From positions 372,001-436,000 of the forward strand of contig NZ_JARKMY010000018.1 of NCBI RefSeq assembly GCF_029360725.1: 64,000 nt of DNA, written 5' to 3'. Below are positions 38,839 through 46,137 of this stretch, piece by piece. Positions within the stretch are counted from its first letter, which is position 1. The number at the start of each line of letters is the position of its first letter. The translations under genes and the position numbers were made by a program. Source of the DNA: Chryseolinea sp. H1M3-3 (GTDB lineage Bacteria; Bacteroidota; Bacteroidia; Cytophagales; Cyclobacteriaceae). Under the pieces are notes generated by a model. That model had not been told where the DNA came from and ran no database searches. It saw only the letters and a program-made list of their open reading frames with translations.

Positions 38839-39753
38839 ATGCAAAAAGAAGAGCTATCAAATCTTATCTGTACTCTCACAATTAATGGCTTCCATTTGGG
38901 AAAAGTTGAGCGTTTAACGCCGGACAATGTGATAGTGAATTGTCATAAGTACGATAAACTTGGCGGACGCGTAAACTATAGTATTCTTTTGTCTGAGGAC
39001 AAAGCAGAATCAGCTTCTTGTGATTCACTATGGAGAATGGAATCGAACGGGGAAAACTCCAAAGCAATCTTAATTAACGATTACTTTGCCTCCGCAAGAT
39101 TTGATTCTTACACCAAAGCGAGGTTCTTCGACACCCTTGGCGGAATGGTAAATACAGGGTTAATCTTAATTCCCAACTTGTCAGAAATTTTAAACCAACT
39201 TGGTCATAATGTATTACCCTTGGGGCTGATAGGCAAACCAGATGACCTCCACGAGCTTTATGTTAAAGAATGTTTACAATTTATAATGGCGTCTCCGGTG
39301 AGGCGCTACGGTATCGATAGGGCGTTTCAAAAATTACCTGACGGAGTTGTGCTCGGTAAGGAAAGAATACTAATTCCTATTGACTCTAAAGCATATTCCA
39401 ATGGCTACAGCATATCCGCGGACGACATCAAAAGATTTGCCTTTTATTGCACGGATTTCAGACAAAGATATTCCCATGACTACGGTCCTGTTTATTCTTT
39501 TCTCGTTATAACGGGAACCCTTTCTGACTCAGGAGAATCAATTTCAAATAGGTCTAATGAGCTTTACAATGAGTGTAATGTCAAGTTGAATTGCATTGAA
39601 AGTAAAGTGTTGGGGTTAATGGTTGAAGCGCTTAAAAACGAGCCCCACCTTAAAAGCGCATTGAACTGGAAAAACATTTTTTTGAAGCCAACGATTGAAC
39701 TTAAACAATTCGAGATCGAATTAGATCGAATCCGAAAAGATAAAATTCTTTAA
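38839..39753 (+). CDS. PD-(D/E)XK nuclease-like protein, first gene of Qat-like operon
   Basis: 304-aa protein not matched to a named family. The region 150-200 reads ...FQKLPDGVVLGKERILIPIDSKAY..: Pro167-Asp168, then Asp182-Ser183-Lys184 at the end of a hydrophobic strand, 14 residues later. This is the PD-X(n)-(D/E)-X-K active-site layout of restriction-endonuclease-fold nucleases. A Glu-bearing helix precedes it (HELYVKECLQFIM) and a charged helix follows (ADDIKRFAFYC), as in that fold. No membrane segment. It stops 3 bp before the QatB-like gene. Best guess: the effector nuclease of a defence operon. The nuclease call is inference from motif spacing; a structure model would settle it. Confidence 0.72.
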   Translation: MQKEELSNLICTLTINGFHLGKVERLTPDNVIVNCHKYDKLGGRVNYSILLSEDKAESASCDSLWRMESNGENSKAILINDYFASARFDSYTKARFFDTLGGMVNTGLILIPNLSEILNQLGHNVLPLGLIGKPDDLHELYVKECLQFIMASPVRRYGIDRAFQKLPDGVVLGKERILIPIDSKAYSNGYSISADDIKRFAFYCTDFRQRYSHDYGPVYSFLVITGTLSDSGESISNRSNELYNECNVKLNCIESKVLGLMVEALKNEPHLKSALNWKNIFLKPTIELKQFEIELDRIRKDKIL

Positions 39754-39756
39754 AAC

Positions 39757-40311
39757 ATGGGAACATCAGTCAGTCAACCCTCACCACGCAATACAAATTG
39801 GCGACGAGTTTTTGTTTGTCACGAAGACGGAAGTATTCCGGAAAGTCGTGTAGTTAAGGAGGTCTGGCGTGCCACTGAAAAGGAATCCATATCAACTGAG
39901 ATAAAGTCCAGGGTTATTTTTGATTGCTACAAGGCCGTTCGTGAATCAAAGAATATACCCGACGCCATTCAAAAATTTCAGCGCTCAATAGTTGAAACAA
40001 AAAGTAATTCCATCGTTGCTGAATTTGCAAGAAGGGCAATTCCGTATGCATTTCAATCGAAAAGTAATCCGTCCGGACAATGGGCAAATTCTCTCTTTTC
40101 AGAAATAACAAGTTATATCGTTTCGCGAGATGCATCGGGATTTGTCGGAGAAAAATTCCGAAATACAACTGTTGGTTCATTGGTCGAATACAAAAAAAAT
40201 ATTTCAGCCACGATCATTAAAGCAATGGGCTCTCCACCAGGCGAGATAAAAACAATTAGGCAATGGGAGAAATTCGTCGACGCATCAATATCAAAATTAA
40301 AATCCTCCTAG
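39757..40311 (+). CDS. QatB-like protein with MGTS N-terminus
   Basis: 184-aa protein. The N-terminus MGTSVSQPSPRNTNW resembles QatB proteins of the Qat anti-phage system, which likewise begin MGTS plus a Ser/Pro/Gly-rich stretch, but this one is shorter than typical QatB. The rest is mostly helical with no catalytic motif. Methionine removal would expose Gly2. It sits directly before the QueC-like gene (2 bp gap), the same order as qatB-qatC. Recent work, as I recall it, shows QueC-like defence enzymes attaching a deazaguanine base to a partner protein N-terminus; this protein would be the natural acceptor here, which is an inference. Confidence 0.72.
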   Translation: MGTSVSQPSPRNTNWRRVFVCHEDGSIPESRVVKEVWRATEKESISTEIKSRVIFDCYKAVRESKNIPDAIQKFQRSIVETKSNSIVAEFARRAIPYAFQSKSNPSGQWANSLFSEITSYIVSRDASGFVGEKFRNTTVGSLVEYKKNISATIIKAMGSPPGEIKTIRQWEKFVDASISKLKSS

Positions 40312-40313
40312 TT

Positions 40314-41615
40314 ATGGCCACGAATACTTATAGAATTAAGGTTGGTGAGGACGGCAAGGGCTTTGATTTTCATTTAGTGCCCGGTAAAAACCTTTATACT
40401 GGATTCAAACCTTTTGAAAAGGAGTTTAGTACGCCCAATTCTTTAGAGGAGGATGTGCTAAATCTTGCGGCAGGCGTTTACGGCGCGGATCTTATAATTA
40501 AAAGGCAGGAACGCGAGCAAAACATTCGTTCAATAGAGTTAACAATTGACGTGGTTAATCTGCATGCGTTTGAAAGGGTTAAAAAAAATATTGAAAACGC
40601 CCTGTTCATAGTCAGTAGGGATAATTGGACGCTGAAGTTTATCCAGAAAGCTGGTGCAGCGGTTTCGACCTTTGATTGGACAGATAAAGCTGGGTCAGTT
40701 TTGTTATTCTCTGGAGGTCTTGACTCGCTGAGCGCTGCAATTAAATTTCTTTCGGAAAACAAAGATGTTGTTCTATTAAGCCACAACTCCAAGGGTAATG
40801 CCGTGGTTGACGAGAGCCAAAGAAACGTACACCAATCCCTCGAAGACTTTTTCGAAAGAAGTGTTAGACATATTCATATAACGGTTTACGGTCGAAAATC
40901 TGAAGGTCTAACGTTTACAGAAGATAGGGAGAACTCGCAACGAACCCGATCATTTCTGTTTTTAACATTAGCGACGTTGGTTACGAGGCGATGCGGTTTT
41001 AACAAGGTACTTTTTATGGCAGAGAATGGGCAATTTGCGATTCATCTACCGTTAAATCAATCTCGGGTGGGGCCGTTCTCCACTCACACCGCAGACCCAC
41101 ATTTTGTGGAGGAGGTTAAGGGCGCTTTTAGACAGCTCCTTAGTAATCCGAAATTTGAAATTGAAAACCCTTTTTTGTACATGACGAAAGCGGAGGTTGT
41201 TGAAATTATACCAAAATCATTTAGAGGCAACTTAAAATATTCAGCTAGCTGTTGGATGATTTCACGAACTCCAGAGCATAAGCATTGTGGTTATTGCGTA
41301 CCGTGCATTTCACGTCGTATTGCACTAGAATATCATGGCATAAATATTAGGGAGTACGACTATGACGTATTTGGAGCAGACTTAAATGCGCTATTGAGCG
41401 ATGATGACCGAAAGCGCAATATCACCGACTACTTAGAATTTATCTCAAAGTTTAAAAAAGTTACGGCTGCCAATAAAGATCAAATCTTAATGGAGTTCCC
41501 GGAATTGTACAATCCGCATATAAACGTCGATTCGGCCTTAGAACTTTACGGAAGGGTTTCTCAACAGTCTTATAAAGTACTCGACGGTTATCCAACTATT
41601 AAAAAAATCCTATGA
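40314..41615 (+). CDS. QueC-like (QatC-type) nucleobase enzyme
   Basis: 433-aa ATP-pyrophosphatase-fold protein related to 7-cyano-7-deazaguanine synthase. The PP-loop is FSGGLDS (about residues 132-138), followed by a LLSHNSKG segment, ENGQFAIHLPLN and STHTADPHF, and the zinc cluster with CW (about 311) and HCGYCVPC (about 324-331). It is about twice the length of housekeeping QueC (around 220 aa) and has an extra N-terminal domain of about 130 residues, as in QatC. The start is set at ATG 40314 (MATNTYRIK), 2 bp after the QatB-like stop; an upstream in-frame ATG at 40263 would overlap that gene by 49 bp. No queD, queE or queF is nearby, so queuosine synthesis is unlikely. Confidence 0.88.
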   Translation: MATNTYRIKVGEDGKGFDFHLVPGKNLYTGFKPFEKEFSTPNSLEEDVLNLAAGVYGADLIIKRQEREQNIRSIELTIDVVNLHAFERVKKNIENALFIVSRDNWTLKFIQKAGAAVSTFDWTDKAGSVLLFSGGLDSLSAAIKFLSENKDVVLLSHNSKGNAVVDESQRNVHQSLEDFFERSVRHIHITVYGRKSEGLTFTEDRENSQRTRSFLFLTLATLVTRRCGFNKVLFMAENGQFAIHLPLNQSRVGPFSTHTADPHFVEEVKGAFRQLLSNPKFEIENPFLYMTKAEVVEIIPKSFRGNLKYSASCWMISRTPEHKHCGYCVPCISRRIALEYHGINIREYDYDVFGADLNALLSDDDRKRNITDYLEFISKFKKVTAANKDQILMEFPELYNPHINVDSALELYGRVSQQSYKVLDGYPTIKKIL

Positions 41616-42235
41616 AAAGGTTTTCAATATCACGACTCGAAGAAGCCAGACGTAATCCCGCCGAATTTGGCAAGTTACTTAATTCAGAGACAAAAAATGG
41701 TGGGATGAGCTTTTCGAAGTATATGGCCTGGCAGCATACATTATTTCGCTTTCACAAAACCAAAGACCTGCCTGAAACTATAAATTATTTTGAGTCACTT
41801 TTTTGGGGCAAGTTCGTGGACAATCGAGCCAATAGAAATCAATACGAAAAATTTCTTGAATCACTGAATGCGTACATAAAGGACCATGACAAAAATAAAT
41901 ACAAGTATATTGATGGAAGAGTCAAGATGGACATTAAACTTTCAGAGAAAGTAAAAATAACTGGACAGATACCTATCGTTAATATGAGCCCGGTGGGTTA
42001 TTCAGTTTTTTTCTTAGTACGAGGTCGCGATGACTGGGAGGAAGAGCTAAAATTCCCTGTAGTTCAAAACTACCTTTCCGAAAGCTTCGGCGTTAAGTTG
42101 TCTGAGGTGGAGGTTGGAGTGTACGACCTGGAAAAAGAAAAGCACATTTGTAAAATTTACTCCGCGCGTGACGTAAGAGAAGCAAATGTCGAACTGATAA
42201 AAATTGGCCGAATTATTTCCTCAAACTTAATTTAG
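41612..42235 (+). CDS. Unknown 207-aa protein, last gene of Qat-like operon
   Basis: Starts inside the end of the QueC-like gene (ATGA overlap), so it is clearly part of the operon. The N-terminus FSISRLEEARRNPAEF and later segments (KITGQIPIVN, YSVFFLVRGRDDWEEELKFP, VQNYLSESFGVKLSEVEVGVYDLE) recall the RecB/Cas4-type PD-(D/E)XK fold. However, the positions expected to hold the Asp and the (D/E)XK triad are not conserved, so if it has that fold it is probably inactive. It might serve as a DNA-binding or structural partner. This fold reading is weak. A small hairpin (CTCATG-AAG-CATGAG, 42244-42258) follows the stop; the gap 42259-42534 holds nothing I can name. Confidence 0.7.
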   Translation: MKRFSISRLEEARRNPAEFGKLLNSETKNGGMSFSKYMAWQHTLFRFHKTKDLPETINYFESLFWGKFVDNRANRNQYEKFLESLNAYIKDHDKNKYKYIDGRVKMDIKLSEKVKITGQIPIVNMSPVGYSVFFLVRGRDDWEEELKFPVVQNYLSESFGVKLSEVEVGVYDLEKEKHICKIYSARDVREANVELIKIGRIISSNLI

Positions 42236-42534: not shown

Positions 42535-43737
42535 CTAACGCCACCTAGTAACAGCGGGATGATTTCGCAAGCTTCTGGTAAATTCTCGAAGGGTGTTCCT
42601 GTTCACTTCAATTTCTCCTCTATCCAACTTCTCACAAAAGCCTATCGTCTGATCGGCATTGTATCCAAGTTTGTGATAATCTGAAACTAGGAATATCCAA
42701 TGGGCGTTCTCGCTCCTAAGTCGAGGCTCAACATCAAGCTCGCTCAAATCAATTGTCACGCCGCCTAGCCTTGCATAGCCACTCAACCTTTCGTTGTCAC
42801 TCACGATCGTGCCGTCGCGAGTAATACCGACCATGAAGCTGATTCCACCGACATCAGAAACCACTCTATACCCCTCCAGACCGTCACTCTTTATGAGGAT
42901 GAAGTCACTCGCCAACCCACTGTCCATACAAACCCACATATCTGAAATCTTTATTTCCCAATTCCAGCCGCTAATAAACCACGTTCCTGAAGGCGATCGT
43001 CTGATACGTTCAACATAAGAATCACCACCTTTGAACCTATACCAAAGTTTGTTGAGAAAATCTGAGTTGCTCAAGTCCGTCATTATCTGCGTTTGTAATC
43101 CTGCATCTTCAATCCGATGGATGCCGTCGCTCAAAGCAGGAATCGCCTTAACGATGATCTTGTGCAACGGATACAAGACATCATCCCAACACGAATCGTT
43201 AGGATCCTGTTTATCGAAAGTAATGCTGGACGATTTGGTGGACGCTTGGTGTCCTGAAATCTTTTCGAGAAAGGCATCCACGCCTGCATCGAGTCTTGAC
43301 AGATTGTAATTGGAATTTAACTTTTGTTTATTGTCTTCTACAAAATGGAGTATGTCTTTCTTTACAAAAATCTTCAAACCCAATTTGTTAACGTTGAGGA
43401 AGCCGACGTCACTGAATTCTATGTCGGGGAGTAGAAGAAATATTACCGACTCTGGTTCCAATGTCGCCCAGGCTGCGCCGACTTCGTTCAGACAGACTTC
43501 ACTGTCTTTGTAGTTGCGCGAGATAAACAATAAGGCAATCACGGAATCGTTGATCTCCTTTCGCAACCTTTCAGGTATATATTGACCGCTATGCACGCCA
43601 TGTCCCTCCATACTTGAACAGAAAATCCTATCTGCGGTAATATCAAGTCCAAGTCTCAAAATGTGGTCCACAAAGAATCTTATATAATCAATGTCTTTTT
43701 GCGAATGGCTGATGAATATTTTTGTTTTTTCGCTCAT
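42535..43737 (-). CDS. TIR-domain protein
   Basis: 400-aa protein with an N-terminal TIR domain (about 1-150): opening strand TKIFISHSQKDIDYIRFFVDHIL, then LLFISRNYKDSEVCLNEVGAAW with the catalytic-type glutamate (about residue 86), and VIFLLLPDIEF. Bacterial TIR domains usually cleave NAD+ or make cyclic ADP-ribose signals in anti-phage defence. The C-terminal 250 residues have no family I recognise; they contain a beta-rich part (SPSGTWFISGWNWEIKISDMW, GGISFMVGITRDGTIVS) that may sense a ligand or partner. It follows the PLD-like gene by 25 bp on the same strand, so the two probably form an operon. Confidence 0.88.
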   Translation of the reverse strand: MSEKTKIFISHSQKDIDYIRFFVDHILRLGLDITADRIFCSSMEGHGVHSGQYIPERLRKEINDSVIALLFISRNYKDSEVCLNEVGAAWATLEPESVIFLLLPDIEFSDVGFLNVNKLGLKIFVKKDILHFVEDNKQKLNSNYNLSRLDAGVDAFLEKISGHQASTKSSSITFDKQDPNDSCWDDVLYPLHKIIVKAIPALSDGIHRIEDAGLQTQIMTDLSNSDFLNKLWYRFKGGDSYVERIRRSPSGTWFISGWNWEIKISDMWVCMDSGLASDFILIKSDGLEGYRVVSDVGGISFMVGITRDGTIVSDNERLSGYARLGGVTIDLSELDVEPRLRSENAHWIFLVSDYHKLGYNADQTIGFCEKLDRGEIEVNRNTLREFTRSLRNHPAVTRWR

Positions 43738-43762
43738 ACGGATAACGATGTGTGAAAAGATC

Positions 43763-44509
43763 TCATAACCGATAAATCTCCTTTGCCTTCTTCCAATTCT
43801 TCTTCATAATGGGCGTAAGCATGCTAGTCTCGCCGTTAGACGGTTCGCCAGAAAAATGACAGAATTTTTCACGGTAGTCCGGATTTCCATACTCATTCCA
43901 TTTCTTGTAGCCTTCTGTACTGAATGGCTTTTCAATGTTGAAGGGGATCTCTACCCCGGTCCTGATGCAGTATCCTAGACCGACCTTAATATTAGTCTTC
44001 GATTGCTGAGCTGCAACAGCTTCAGATTTAGATGGTTTTGCAACTTTTTCATGTTGCGTTGAGGGCAGTTCAAATGGTTTGTCATCGCTGTTGTCTTCAA
44101 TGAACTTTATTTTCTCCAAGGCCTTGTTATAAATTTCTTCGTCGTTGGGGTTGTTCTTATCAAACAATACACCCATTTCCTTATTATTGATCATAGAGTA
44201 CTCGTAGAAATTCATTGAGCCAAGGATCAATTTGTTGTCATTTGCATAGGCCTTAGCGTGGAGATTTTCGTGGAATTTCAGATAGACAAATCTTAATCCA
44301 GTAAGAAACTGTAATTGCTGCGGAGTCAAATCCGATTTACCGTAAATAATGATAGTCTTCTTTTCGTTCTTGTTTCTGGAATTGACTAGTTCTTGAAAGT
44401 CCTTTGAGAGCTTTAGATAAGGGCTAACTAGATATAGCGTTTTATCTGCTTCTCGGATTAACTCCTCAAGTTCTGATGAAATTTGCTTGGTTGTAAGAAA
44501 TTTAGCCAT
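43763..44509 (-). CDS. Phospholipase D-like (HKD) nuclease domain protein
   Basis: 248-aa protein with one PLD-type active site: HAKAYANDN (H-x-K-x4-D, about residues 82-90) followed by LILGSMNF and the conserved NNKEMG segment. Single-HKD proteins of this kind usually act as dimeric nucleases. The C-terminal part after an acidic/Lys linker (about 135-175) has GYCIRTGVEIPFN and KFCHFSGEPSNG, whose Cys/His residues suggest a small zinc-binding module. It is the first gene of the minus-strand PLD-TIR pair and is divergent from the SEFIR gene, with 200 bp between the two starts. Confidence 0.87.
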   Translation of the reverse strand: MAKFLTTKQISSELEELIREADKTLYLVSPYLKLSKDFQELVNSRNKNEKKTIIIYGKSDLTPQQLQFLTGLRFVYLKFHENLHAKAYANDNKLILGSMNFYEYSMINNKEMGVLFDKNNPNDEEIYNKALEKIKFIEDNSDDKPFELPSTQHEKVAKPSKSEAVAAQQSKTNIKVGLGYCIRTGVEIPFNIEKPFSTEGYKKWNEYGNPDYREKFCHFSGEPSNGETSMLTPIMKKNWKKAKEIYRL

Positions 44510-44709
44510 TGGCGACGGAGATTATTTTACACAAAAAAAGCGAGGATGATTGATAGACACCTCACCCCGCTCCCAGCTAAATTTAAGGCTTTCTCAACTT
44601 TTCCCAAAAAATCCTTCATTATACTGTGCAGATACCACCCTGGTATTTCAACTGAAATACTGAAAAAAATGAAAAAAGTTAGACCTTGACAAAAAATATA
44701 GCGCTAGTT

Positions 44710-46137
44710 ATGGTCAAGCCTGATTCACCCAAGGTGTTTGTTTCGTATAGTTGGACTCCTGCTCAACACCAGCAGAAAGTTATAGAATTTGCTAAGCAAC
44801 TATCTGCTGATGGAGTTCATGTCATAATTGATGTTTGGGACCTAAACACTGGGCAGGACAAATATCATTTTATGGAAAGAATGGTCAATGACTCGTCGGT
44901 AAAGAAGGTTCTACTAATTTGTAACAAAGACTATGCAGCAAAGGCGAACAACCGAAAAGGTGGCGTCGGTGACGAAAGCCAAATCATTACAACAGAAATC
45001 TATTCTTCAGTAGAGCAGACAAAATTTATTCCGGTAATCTTCGAATTCGATGAAAGCGGACACGCATATATGCCAACGATGATTAGCAATAGAATTTACA
45101 TCGATTTGTTTCACGAAGAAAAATATTACGACGAGTATCAAAAGCTGTTGAGGGACATATATGGGAAACCATCTTCAACTCGACCACCAATAGGTGATAT
45201 GCCGGTATTTCTAAAGATCGACGAGCCAACATATTTGCCCACCTCCAATAAAGTCAACATTCTCAGGAACGCAATAGTAAACGAGAAACAAATTGTCCCC
45301 TATTTGATTCAAGATTATTTGGACACGTTTCTTCGATGTGCTACAGGTTTCGAAATTCCAATCAACATACTGAACGACAATAACTACATCGAAGAAATCG
45401 AAAAGAAGATAACCGAGAGTAAGTATTTAAGAGATGACTTTATCGAATTTTTGGATTTAGTTGTTTCCTATTCCAAGTTTGATAAAGATCAAATACATAT
45501 TTTTTTGGAAAAGTTCACAAGCTTTATCGTTAATTTGGAATGTTTGGAAGGCAGCCATTATACTTTTGGATACATGCGATGTGATGCAATTCTATTTTTC
45601 TATCATGAATTCTTTTTACTTCTGACATCTTACCTGAATGCGCGTGAACAATATATAGAGTTAGCACATATTTTGCACACACCTTTAATAATTGAAAATA
45701 AACGAAGGAACAAATTTGAAGAGACTAATTTCCTTGTATTTCGAAATTATGTTAGAAGCCTGAACGAAAAAAAGAAAAAGAAATTTAACCTTAATACGAA
45801 TAGCGTTGTTTCTGACATGTTTAAGGCAAGGGTAAATAACCGAATTACATGGGACAATATTTTGGAAGCTGATAAATTATTATACTGTATTTCGTTATTG
45901 TTTTATGGAGACGACAAGTTCTATTGGTATGCTGAAACAAGTGAATATTATGTGACTCCAATACTTACAAAAACTTGTTCCAAAAGGTTTTTCGACAAGG
46001 CAAAAGTTCTATTTAAAGTCGATACCAAGGAAGGACTTCTTAAATCCATTGATGCCATGGAGAAAAGAACTAACAACAACGTGGCTAATTCGATTCGGCA
46101 AATATTAAAAGTAAATGAAATGTGTACGATAAGCTGA
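44710..46137 (+). CDS. SEFIR-domain protein
   Basis: TIR-related SEFIR domain at the N-terminus: KVFVSYSWTPAQHQQKVIEFAKQL, GVHVIIDVWDLNTGQDKYHFMERM, and GDESQIITTEIYSS (the glutamate of EIY may be functional), spanning about residues 5-150. The remaining 320 residues are mainly helical and unrecognised. The start is taken as ATG 44710 (MVKPDSPKVFVSY); a TTG at 44686 would add eight residues. Bacterial SEFIR proteins appear in defence islands and some cause NAD+ loss. It is divergent from the PLD-TIR pair, so the three may form one locus with a shared control region at 44510-44709. Confidence 0.85.
   Translation: MVKPDSPKVFVSYSWTPAQHQQKVIEFAKQLSADGVHVIIDVWDLNTGQDKYHFMERMVNDSSVKKVLLICNKDYAAKANNRKGGVGDESQIITTEIYSSVEQTKFIPVIFEFDESGHAYMPTMISNRIYIDLFHEEKYYDEYQKLLRDIYGKPSSTRPPIGDMPVFLKIDEPTYLPTSNKVNILRNAIVNEKQIVPYLIQDYLDTFLRCATGFEIPINILNDNNYIEEIEKKITESKYLRDDFIEFLDLVVSYSKFDKDQIHIFLEKFTSFIVNLECLEGSHYTFGYMRCDAILFFYHEFFLLLTSYLNAREQYIELAHILHTPLIIENKRRNKFEETNFLVFRNYVRSLNEKKKKKFNLNTNSVVSDMFKARVNNRITWDNILEADKLLYCISLLFYGDDKFYWYAETSEYYVTPILTKTCSKRFFDKAKVLFKVDTKEGLLKSIDAMEKRTNNNVANSIRQILKVNEMCTIS

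Follow-up and report, generated by a model that had tools for sequence, protein, structure and literature searches.

A QatC-like operon with a predicted FokI-type nuclease in a conjugative transposon of Chryseolinea sp. H1M3-3: a candidate relative of the Qat anti-phage systems

What might a QatC-type enzyme control when it is encoded beside neither a KAP-type ATPase (QatA) nor a TatD-like nuclease (QatD)? This question is raised by a four-gene operon, here termed A-B-C-D, in a 64,000-nucleotide stretch of contig NZ_JARKMY010000018.1 from Chryseolinea sp. H1M3-3 (the window, by which we mean this whole stretch). Its genes are the following:

38839..39753, + strand: gene A, 304 aa; the C-terminal half is a predicted FokI-type cleavage domain, and the N-terminal ~130 aa are without a known family
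39757..40311, + strand: gene B, 184 aa; predicted substrate or partner of C, helical, with an N-terminal tail that is disordered in the model
40314..41615, + strand: gene C, 433 aa; a divergent QatC, that is, an ATP enzyme of QueC-like type extended at both termini
41612..42235, + strand: gene D, 207 aa; predicted RecB/AddB/Cas4-type nuclease fold in which a working active site is probably absent

The tight operon described in the original prediction, which was made from the letters of the window, proved exact in its coordinates and spacing: all four genes lie on the + strand, with 3 bp between A and B, 2 bp between B and C, and a 4-bp overlap between C and D (the listed open reading frame of C opens at 40263, within B; the start at 40314 was taken, giving the spacing of that prediction). 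As judged from the comparisons below, the unit has the look of a Qat-related anti-phage system that is still uncharacterised, and the best explanation for it, in which we place slightly more confidence than doubt, is a QatBC-type anti-phage module controlling a FokI-type nuclease. How modified QatB stops phage is posed as an open question in PMC13279940, and according to PMC13329287 qatA and qatD are neighbours of 34.3% and 33.6% of QatC proteins, about two thirds being without them. In the present operon a single nuclease, its predicted active site intact, is tied to the QatC-like core, so that DNA cleavage could report directly on the effect of the modification.

The conserved unit and its QatC-like core

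The order A-B-C-D is kept in all six loci of this type (the window, L007-L010 and L032). Four relatives came from a scan of genome contigs with C, each with the complete set (4/4), and among 395 sampled genomes of the window's phylum there were 19 with a match to QatC, two of them (G000 and G231) above 400 bits; G231 also carries A-B-C-D, bringing the total to 6/6 loci. Since the order is kept across homologues whose identity to the window proteins falls as low as 29% (A), 30% (B), 42% (C) and 20% (D), we conclude from these alignments that the association is not chance. The hosts belong to the Chitinophagaceae, the Dysgonomonadaceae and a distant family of the same phylum. The unit is rare, because the genome samples yielded so few further copies: no C match above 155 bits was found beyond the window genome in samples of 395 genomes of its class, 325 of its family and 6 of its genus. 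Additionally, a tblastn search of 72,556 plasmids with the single window proteins A, B and D gave no relatives, viral contigs searched with A and C gave none either, and just two phage records held a weak match to C. Nor did A, B or D turn up when 39 other QatC-type loci were searched in six frames; some of these loci are fragments, and 11 (L093-L103) have only ~1.5 kb of flank.

Gene C is, by the residues it retains, a divergent QatC. The expectation of a QueC-like protein with a QatC-like N-terminal extension is borne out by matches to the QatC family of PADLOC (7.9e-57) and to the solved QatC chains 9zee/9vlk (3e-27). The match to NCBIfam QatC (NF041925; 1.4e-63) reaches 215 bits and stays below the equivalog cut-off of 280. 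C falls outside canonical QueC, its match to TIGR00364 reaching 27.7 bits against a cut-off of 150.3. Three sites can be placed on the sequence:

40710..40727, + strand: SGGLDS ATP/pyrophosphate loop of C, residues 133-138, placed by alignment
41079..41090, + strand: S-T-H-T of C with the QatC Thr-x-Thr pair, residues 256-259; T257 and T259 invariant 10/10
41250..41306, + strand: probable zinc-binding Cys set of C, C313, C325, C328 and C331 (5/5; C325, C328 and C331 10/10)

In an alignment of ten rows (the six C proteins of this operon type, the window C included, and four QatCs from operons of the KAP type), the invariant residues also include D59, R64, R72, D103/W105/F109, SGGxDS, R210/R212/F216, E237/G239, P286, T291/K292 and the whole of H324-C325-G326-C328-C331; taken together, the invariant residues cover the majority of the QatC motifs listed in PMC13329287, though not the full set. 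T257 and T259 stand where PMC13279940 places the Thr pair of QatC, a pair that, according to the same source, stands in for the Tyr/Asp with which QueC and Cap9 recognise 7-carboxy-7-deazaguanine (CDG). Mutation of the Thr pair, mutation of the ATP loop and the G2D change in QatB each abolish defence, and QatBC alone is enough for defence against phage lambda; the chemical reaction of QatC in qatABCD is described as unresolved by the same authors (PMC13279940).

Gene B would supply the other half of such a core:

39757..39801, + strand: N-terminal tail of B, MGTS...W15, with Gly2 as the proposed modified residue

The MGTS opening predicted for the second gene is invariant in all six homologues, as are Q7, S9 and W15 (the L032 protein opens at a GTG start), and a Gly2 tail with a downstream Trp on the partner protein, which we used as the mark of a QatBC-type core, is thereby present in 6/6. 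In the AlphaFold2 model B is all-helical, with a mean predicted local distance difference test (pLDDT) score of 74.8, and residues 1-25 lie below 50. Across QatC loci, a protein starting MG(T/H) directly precedes QatC in 26 of 29, with Trp at residue 15-20 in 25 of these 26, and an MG(T/H) reading frame occurs at any position in nine of the ten loci L093-L102, L096 having none.

Several results count against a QatB-type partner and a general tail rule. The moderate-confidence model of B finds no PDB match at E<=0.001; neither B nor its L032 homologue matches the NCBIfam QatB family (NF041924), to which control QatBs of KAP operons align at 127, 114 and 28.6 bits (cut-off 100); and a profile comparison of B with QatB (hhalign) gives a probability of 2%. 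The tail rule has its exceptions in L033, L050 and L067, where no MG(T/H) partner directly precedes QatC, and in L048, where the Trp is missing. B is therefore not demonstrably QatB, since control QatBs match and B does not, and because these tests are negative and the model is helical, the likeness of B to QatB is one of position, tail and helical make-up, not of detectable sequence.

The same result bears on whether the locus might be an ordinary QatABCD system minus QatA and QatD, lying beside two unrelated genes. The QatC-like C and the MGTS start of B would fit this, yet we consider it improbable: it is strongly disfavoured by the conserved operon, in which A and D accompany B-C in 6/6 loci, and also by the separate clade of C and the failure of B against a family that control QatBs match. 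No match to the QatA, QatB or QatD families was found among genes A-D with PADLOC, Pfam and NCBIfam, so that the operon, in agreement with the expected absence of a KAP ATPase and a TatD protein, offers none of the three components that would join QatC in QatABCD. In the controls, QatA of L034 was matched at 552 bits, itself below the 600-bit cut-off, and a QatD at 278 bits against a cut-off of 230, D having no TatD match. The window does contain P-loop proteins of the conjugation machinery (TraG and the coupling protein), which are not KAP ATPases.

The flanking genes and their nuclease folds

By profile comparison, a FokI-type cleavage domain is encoded in gene A, and its predicted catalytic site is intact:

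39337..39390, + strand: PD...DSK active site of A, residues 167-184; D168, D182 and K184 invariant 6/6

The PD-x(n)-DSK layout seen at the outset corresponds to P167-D168 and D182-S-K184. Pfam FokI_cleav_dom is matched by the window protein at 4.8e-5 (23.3 bits) and by five of the six A homologues at E<=0.1 (best 1.8e-5), and a profile built from the first five A proteins finds the FokI structures 2fok/1fok at E 3e-4 (2fok 3.2e-4), the alignment covering the PDG...DTKAY region. The catalytic residues of FokI are D450, D467 and K469, and the aligned region of A is consistent with these; profile match and PD...DxK residues together place A in the FokI type. The likeness extends over the PD...DTK/DSK-AY site and the segment after it, whereas A has no match to the DNA-recognition part of FokI and differs also in sitting in a QatC operon. 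Two points weaken the assignment, namely that 23.3 bits is just short of the 25-bit cut-off of FokI_cleav_dom and that the A protein of L032 is absent among the NCBIfam matches. Among the literature matches listed (titles and abstracts, mostly open-access), none describes a FokI-type nuclease with QatC.

The product of gene D, which the original prediction left as an unknown protein, is predicted to adopt a RecB/AddB/Cas4-type nuclease fold. Its AlphaFold2 model (pLDDT 90.8) finds AdnA (6ppu_A) as the best Foldseek match, at E 6.0e-5 and probability 1.00, with a TM score of 0.68 by query length; after AdnA the list holds mostly AddB, Cas4, Dna2, RecE and MGME1, two matches being at E<=0.001. 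On the predicted model, the RecB/PDDEXK_1 fold is thus recovered. It rests on model and Foldseek, because the D profile fails to match PDDEXK_1: the comparison with PDDEXK_1 domains from relatives was not significant (0.3%), which speaks against the assignment, and hidden Markov model searches of D (PADLOC, Pfam, NCBIfam) gave no significant family. In that non-significant comparison, of 14 columns, G-x-I-P of D is aligned with G-x-I-D of the nucleases, which puts residue 121 (P, P, P, P, S and L across the six proteins, a position set by this short alignment) where the catalytic acid would be expected. Strand 129-136 carries D/E-x-K in 0/6. Because position 121 is without an acid and the strand without D/E-x-K, D is probably, not certainly, a pseudonuclease; an E-x-K/R (E145-K147) in the loop after the expected strand, present in five of the six D proteins, argues the other way. 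Compared with AdnA, AddB, Cas4 and RecE, D accordingly shares the predicted fold and differs in having neither an acid at the aligned position nor D/E-x-K on the expected strand (6/6) and in giving no significant profile match.

How closely A and D belong to the core is of consequence, since B-C might by itself be the defence unit, with A and D an independent restriction-like or toxin pair travelling along. QatBC alone protects against some phages (PMC13279940), and FokI-like domains occur also in stand-alone proteins, one being the protein of L061:3871-5232; nevertheless, B-C is enclosed by A and D within one tight transcription unit, the sampled genomes contained no full-length A or D apart from B-C, and we regard this separation of A and D from the core as unlikely. 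In 390 genomes, full-length matches to the A and D profiles came from G000 and G231 only, both operon carriers whose own sequences are members of those profiles. The original prediction proposed co-occurrence of the flanking genes with the B-C pair as a check, and it is seen in 6/6 loci, with no full-length copy apart in the samples searched. On the other side, the A profile also partially matched G126 and G227 (19-23 bits) in the 390 genomes, the partial match of G126 lying ~9 kb from a KAP-type Qat operon. The protein of L061:3871-5232 just mentioned, 453 aa long with a C-terminal FokI-type domain, lies ~9 kb from a KAP-type Qat operon on the same contig.

Relatives among QatC-bearing systems

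A tree of 29 QatC proteins, from which L061 was left out, separates six of the present type (support 100/99), 15 of the KAP type (95/96) and six of an MGHxR type (100/100); two long-branch rows are unsure. The KAP-type loci were complete by eye in 13 of 15, the KAP gene of L047 being split into two reading frames; L033 is without a KAP gene and without an intact MGTS start, and L035 without TatD (KAP and TatD were assigned by sequence start, with a hidden Markov model check for L034 only). The tree splits by operon type, which suggests that the pairing of the QueC-derived enzyme with different effectors arose on more than one occasion. The idea of a new branch stands in so far as the branch is separate and has both a restriction-type nuclease and a fourth partner peculiar to it, and is not borne out as regards B being QatB or dependence on deazaguanine.

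With QatABCD, the present operon shares a QatC-like enzyme that has most signature residues and directly follows a protein with an MGTS...W tail, a prediction of disorder for that tail in both, a four-gene layout and a frequent location in defence islands. It differs in having no KAP ATPase or TatD, in a B without detectable QatB homology, in a C below the NCBI QatC cut-off, and in a FokI-type nuclease encoded first, a RecB-like fold encoded last and a separate QatC clade. A comparison may also be drawn with Cap9-CdnD of the type IV cyclic oligonucleotide-based antiphage signalling system (CBASS), where a QueC-family enzyme likewise acts with a partner that starts with Met-Gly (PMC13279940); A-D, however, include no CD-NTase and no Cap10/TGT, and C is without the CDG-binding Tyr/Asp of Cap9.

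The MGHxR type consists of two-gene units in which a partner of ~260 aa with an MGHxR...W15 tail accompanies a long QatC of 575-656 aa:

L036:6465-9007, two-gene MGHxR unit
L037:1797-4315, two-gene MGHxR unit
L039:6765-9283, two-gene MGHxR unit
L041:6914-9420, two-gene MGHxR unit
L049:6212-8937, two-gene MGHxR unit
L069:3114-5758, two-gene MGHxR unit, on a Leptospira noguchii plasmid

An MGHxR start is seen in L098 too. Like the present operon, these units combine QatC with a Gly2 partner having Trp15, and no QatA or QatD was read in them; their partner sequence is unrelated, the C-terminal extension is fused to QatC, and the clade is separate (100/100). The QatC of L069 carries a fused C-terminal DpnII-MboI restriction endonuclease domain (1.2e-9), which is, at the level of domain matches, a second link of QatC to a restriction-type nuclease. 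In the other five units the C-terminal part is unlike that of L069, and the QatCs of L036 and L041, scanned whole, gave no nuclease match.

Two further QatC-like genes stand apart. The archaeal gene at L067:2982-5251, on a Halolamina plasmid, has a long tree branch and follows two small genes, of which the first has an MGTA start, and the very divergent gene at L050:6560-8361 has upstream of it a 152-aa gene without a Met-Gly start and after it a gene that by eye looks helix-turn-helix-like.

Proposed mechanism and genomic setting

Sequence or model supports several elements of the QatBC-type module with a FokI-type effector that we favour: the four genes are conserved as a unit, C retains ATP and QatC motifs, B begins with an MG...W tail, A has a nuclease site, and D has a predicted nuclease fold. 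From these we infer the chemistry, B as substrate, A as effector, the role and inactivity of D, a trigger and anti-phage activity. C would bind B and draw its N-terminus, with Gly2 exposed after removal of Met, into the ATP site, where a small carboxylic acid would be coupled to the Gly2 amine. The modified B-C pair would then license or recruit nuclease A, leading to DNA cutting, and D, having probably lost catalysis, might bind DNA, at its ends or elsewhere, or serve as a scaffold of the complex. One consideration tells against A as the main effector: the nuclease QatD of qatABCD is reportedly dispensable against some phages, and because of this A may be accessory. A more general proposal, which we offer tentatively and with more reserve than conviction, is that the QatC family comprises general N-terminal-glycine ligases acting on at least three partner families that have no detectable sequence similarity and are alike only in their MG...W tail. 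Once modified, the partner would switch on one of several exchangeable nucleases of restriction type, a FokI-like one in trans in the present operon and a DpnII/MboI-like one fused in cis in the Leptospira plasmid unit; A-B-C-D would then be a nuclease-coupled type, undescribed among the literature matches listed, with an inactive RecB-like DNA-end sensor.

The dependence on deazaguanine suggested in the original prediction is carried over solely from type IV CBASS, and the Thr-x-Thr of C, in place of the CDG-recognising Tyr/Asp, does not support that part of the suggestion. The accompanying statement that no queuosine genes are near fits the genome: the host has no QueC over the cut-off, and its QueE-like gene (the product being below all NCBIfam cut-offs) and PTPS gene are on other contigs. 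QueC over the cut-off was found in 11 of 26 QatC-bearing genomes, leaving 15 without, and is missing in four of the six A-B-C-D hosts (window, L007, L008 and L009); PTPS is present in 26/26 and a QueE-like gene in 25/26, so that CDG may be available to hosts, although these counts do not decide CDG as the substrate. Membership of C in the QueC family and the adjoining FokI-type nuclease could also recall restriction-modification, with C helping to make a modified DNA nucleobase and A cutting unmodified DNA, as in Dpd. Such a function seems very improbable for A-D, which include no transglycosylase (TGT/DpdA) or other base-inserting enzyme; C has Thr-x-Thr instead of the CDG-recognising pair, and a queC mutant was not complemented by E. 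coli QatC (PMC13329287).

Finally, the operon lies within a Bacteroidetes-type conjugative transposon (TraG, TraM, DUF4133/4134, RteC, coupling protein and relaxase), a setting in which it might serve the element itself, through exclusion of other elements or DNA processing, and not phage defence. We give this little credence: the cargo beside the operon (window 42535-46137) holds genes for an SpbK-like TIR protein, a DrmC-like PLD protein and bSEFIR (PADLOC), and three of the five other loci adjoin known defence genes, which brings those with such neighbours to four of six (the window; L009 with AbiE, L010 with Avs4, L032 with a type IIG restriction-modification gene). Context elsewhere was taken from nine chosen neighbours of L008, L009, L010 and L032. 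Less in keeping with the anti-phage role we favour, known defence genes were seen neither in L008, by reading and in its scanned neighbour, nor in L007, by reading. The Avs4 of L010 (L010:10250-14980) is full-length and lies downstream of the operon in Proteiniphilum acetatigenes.

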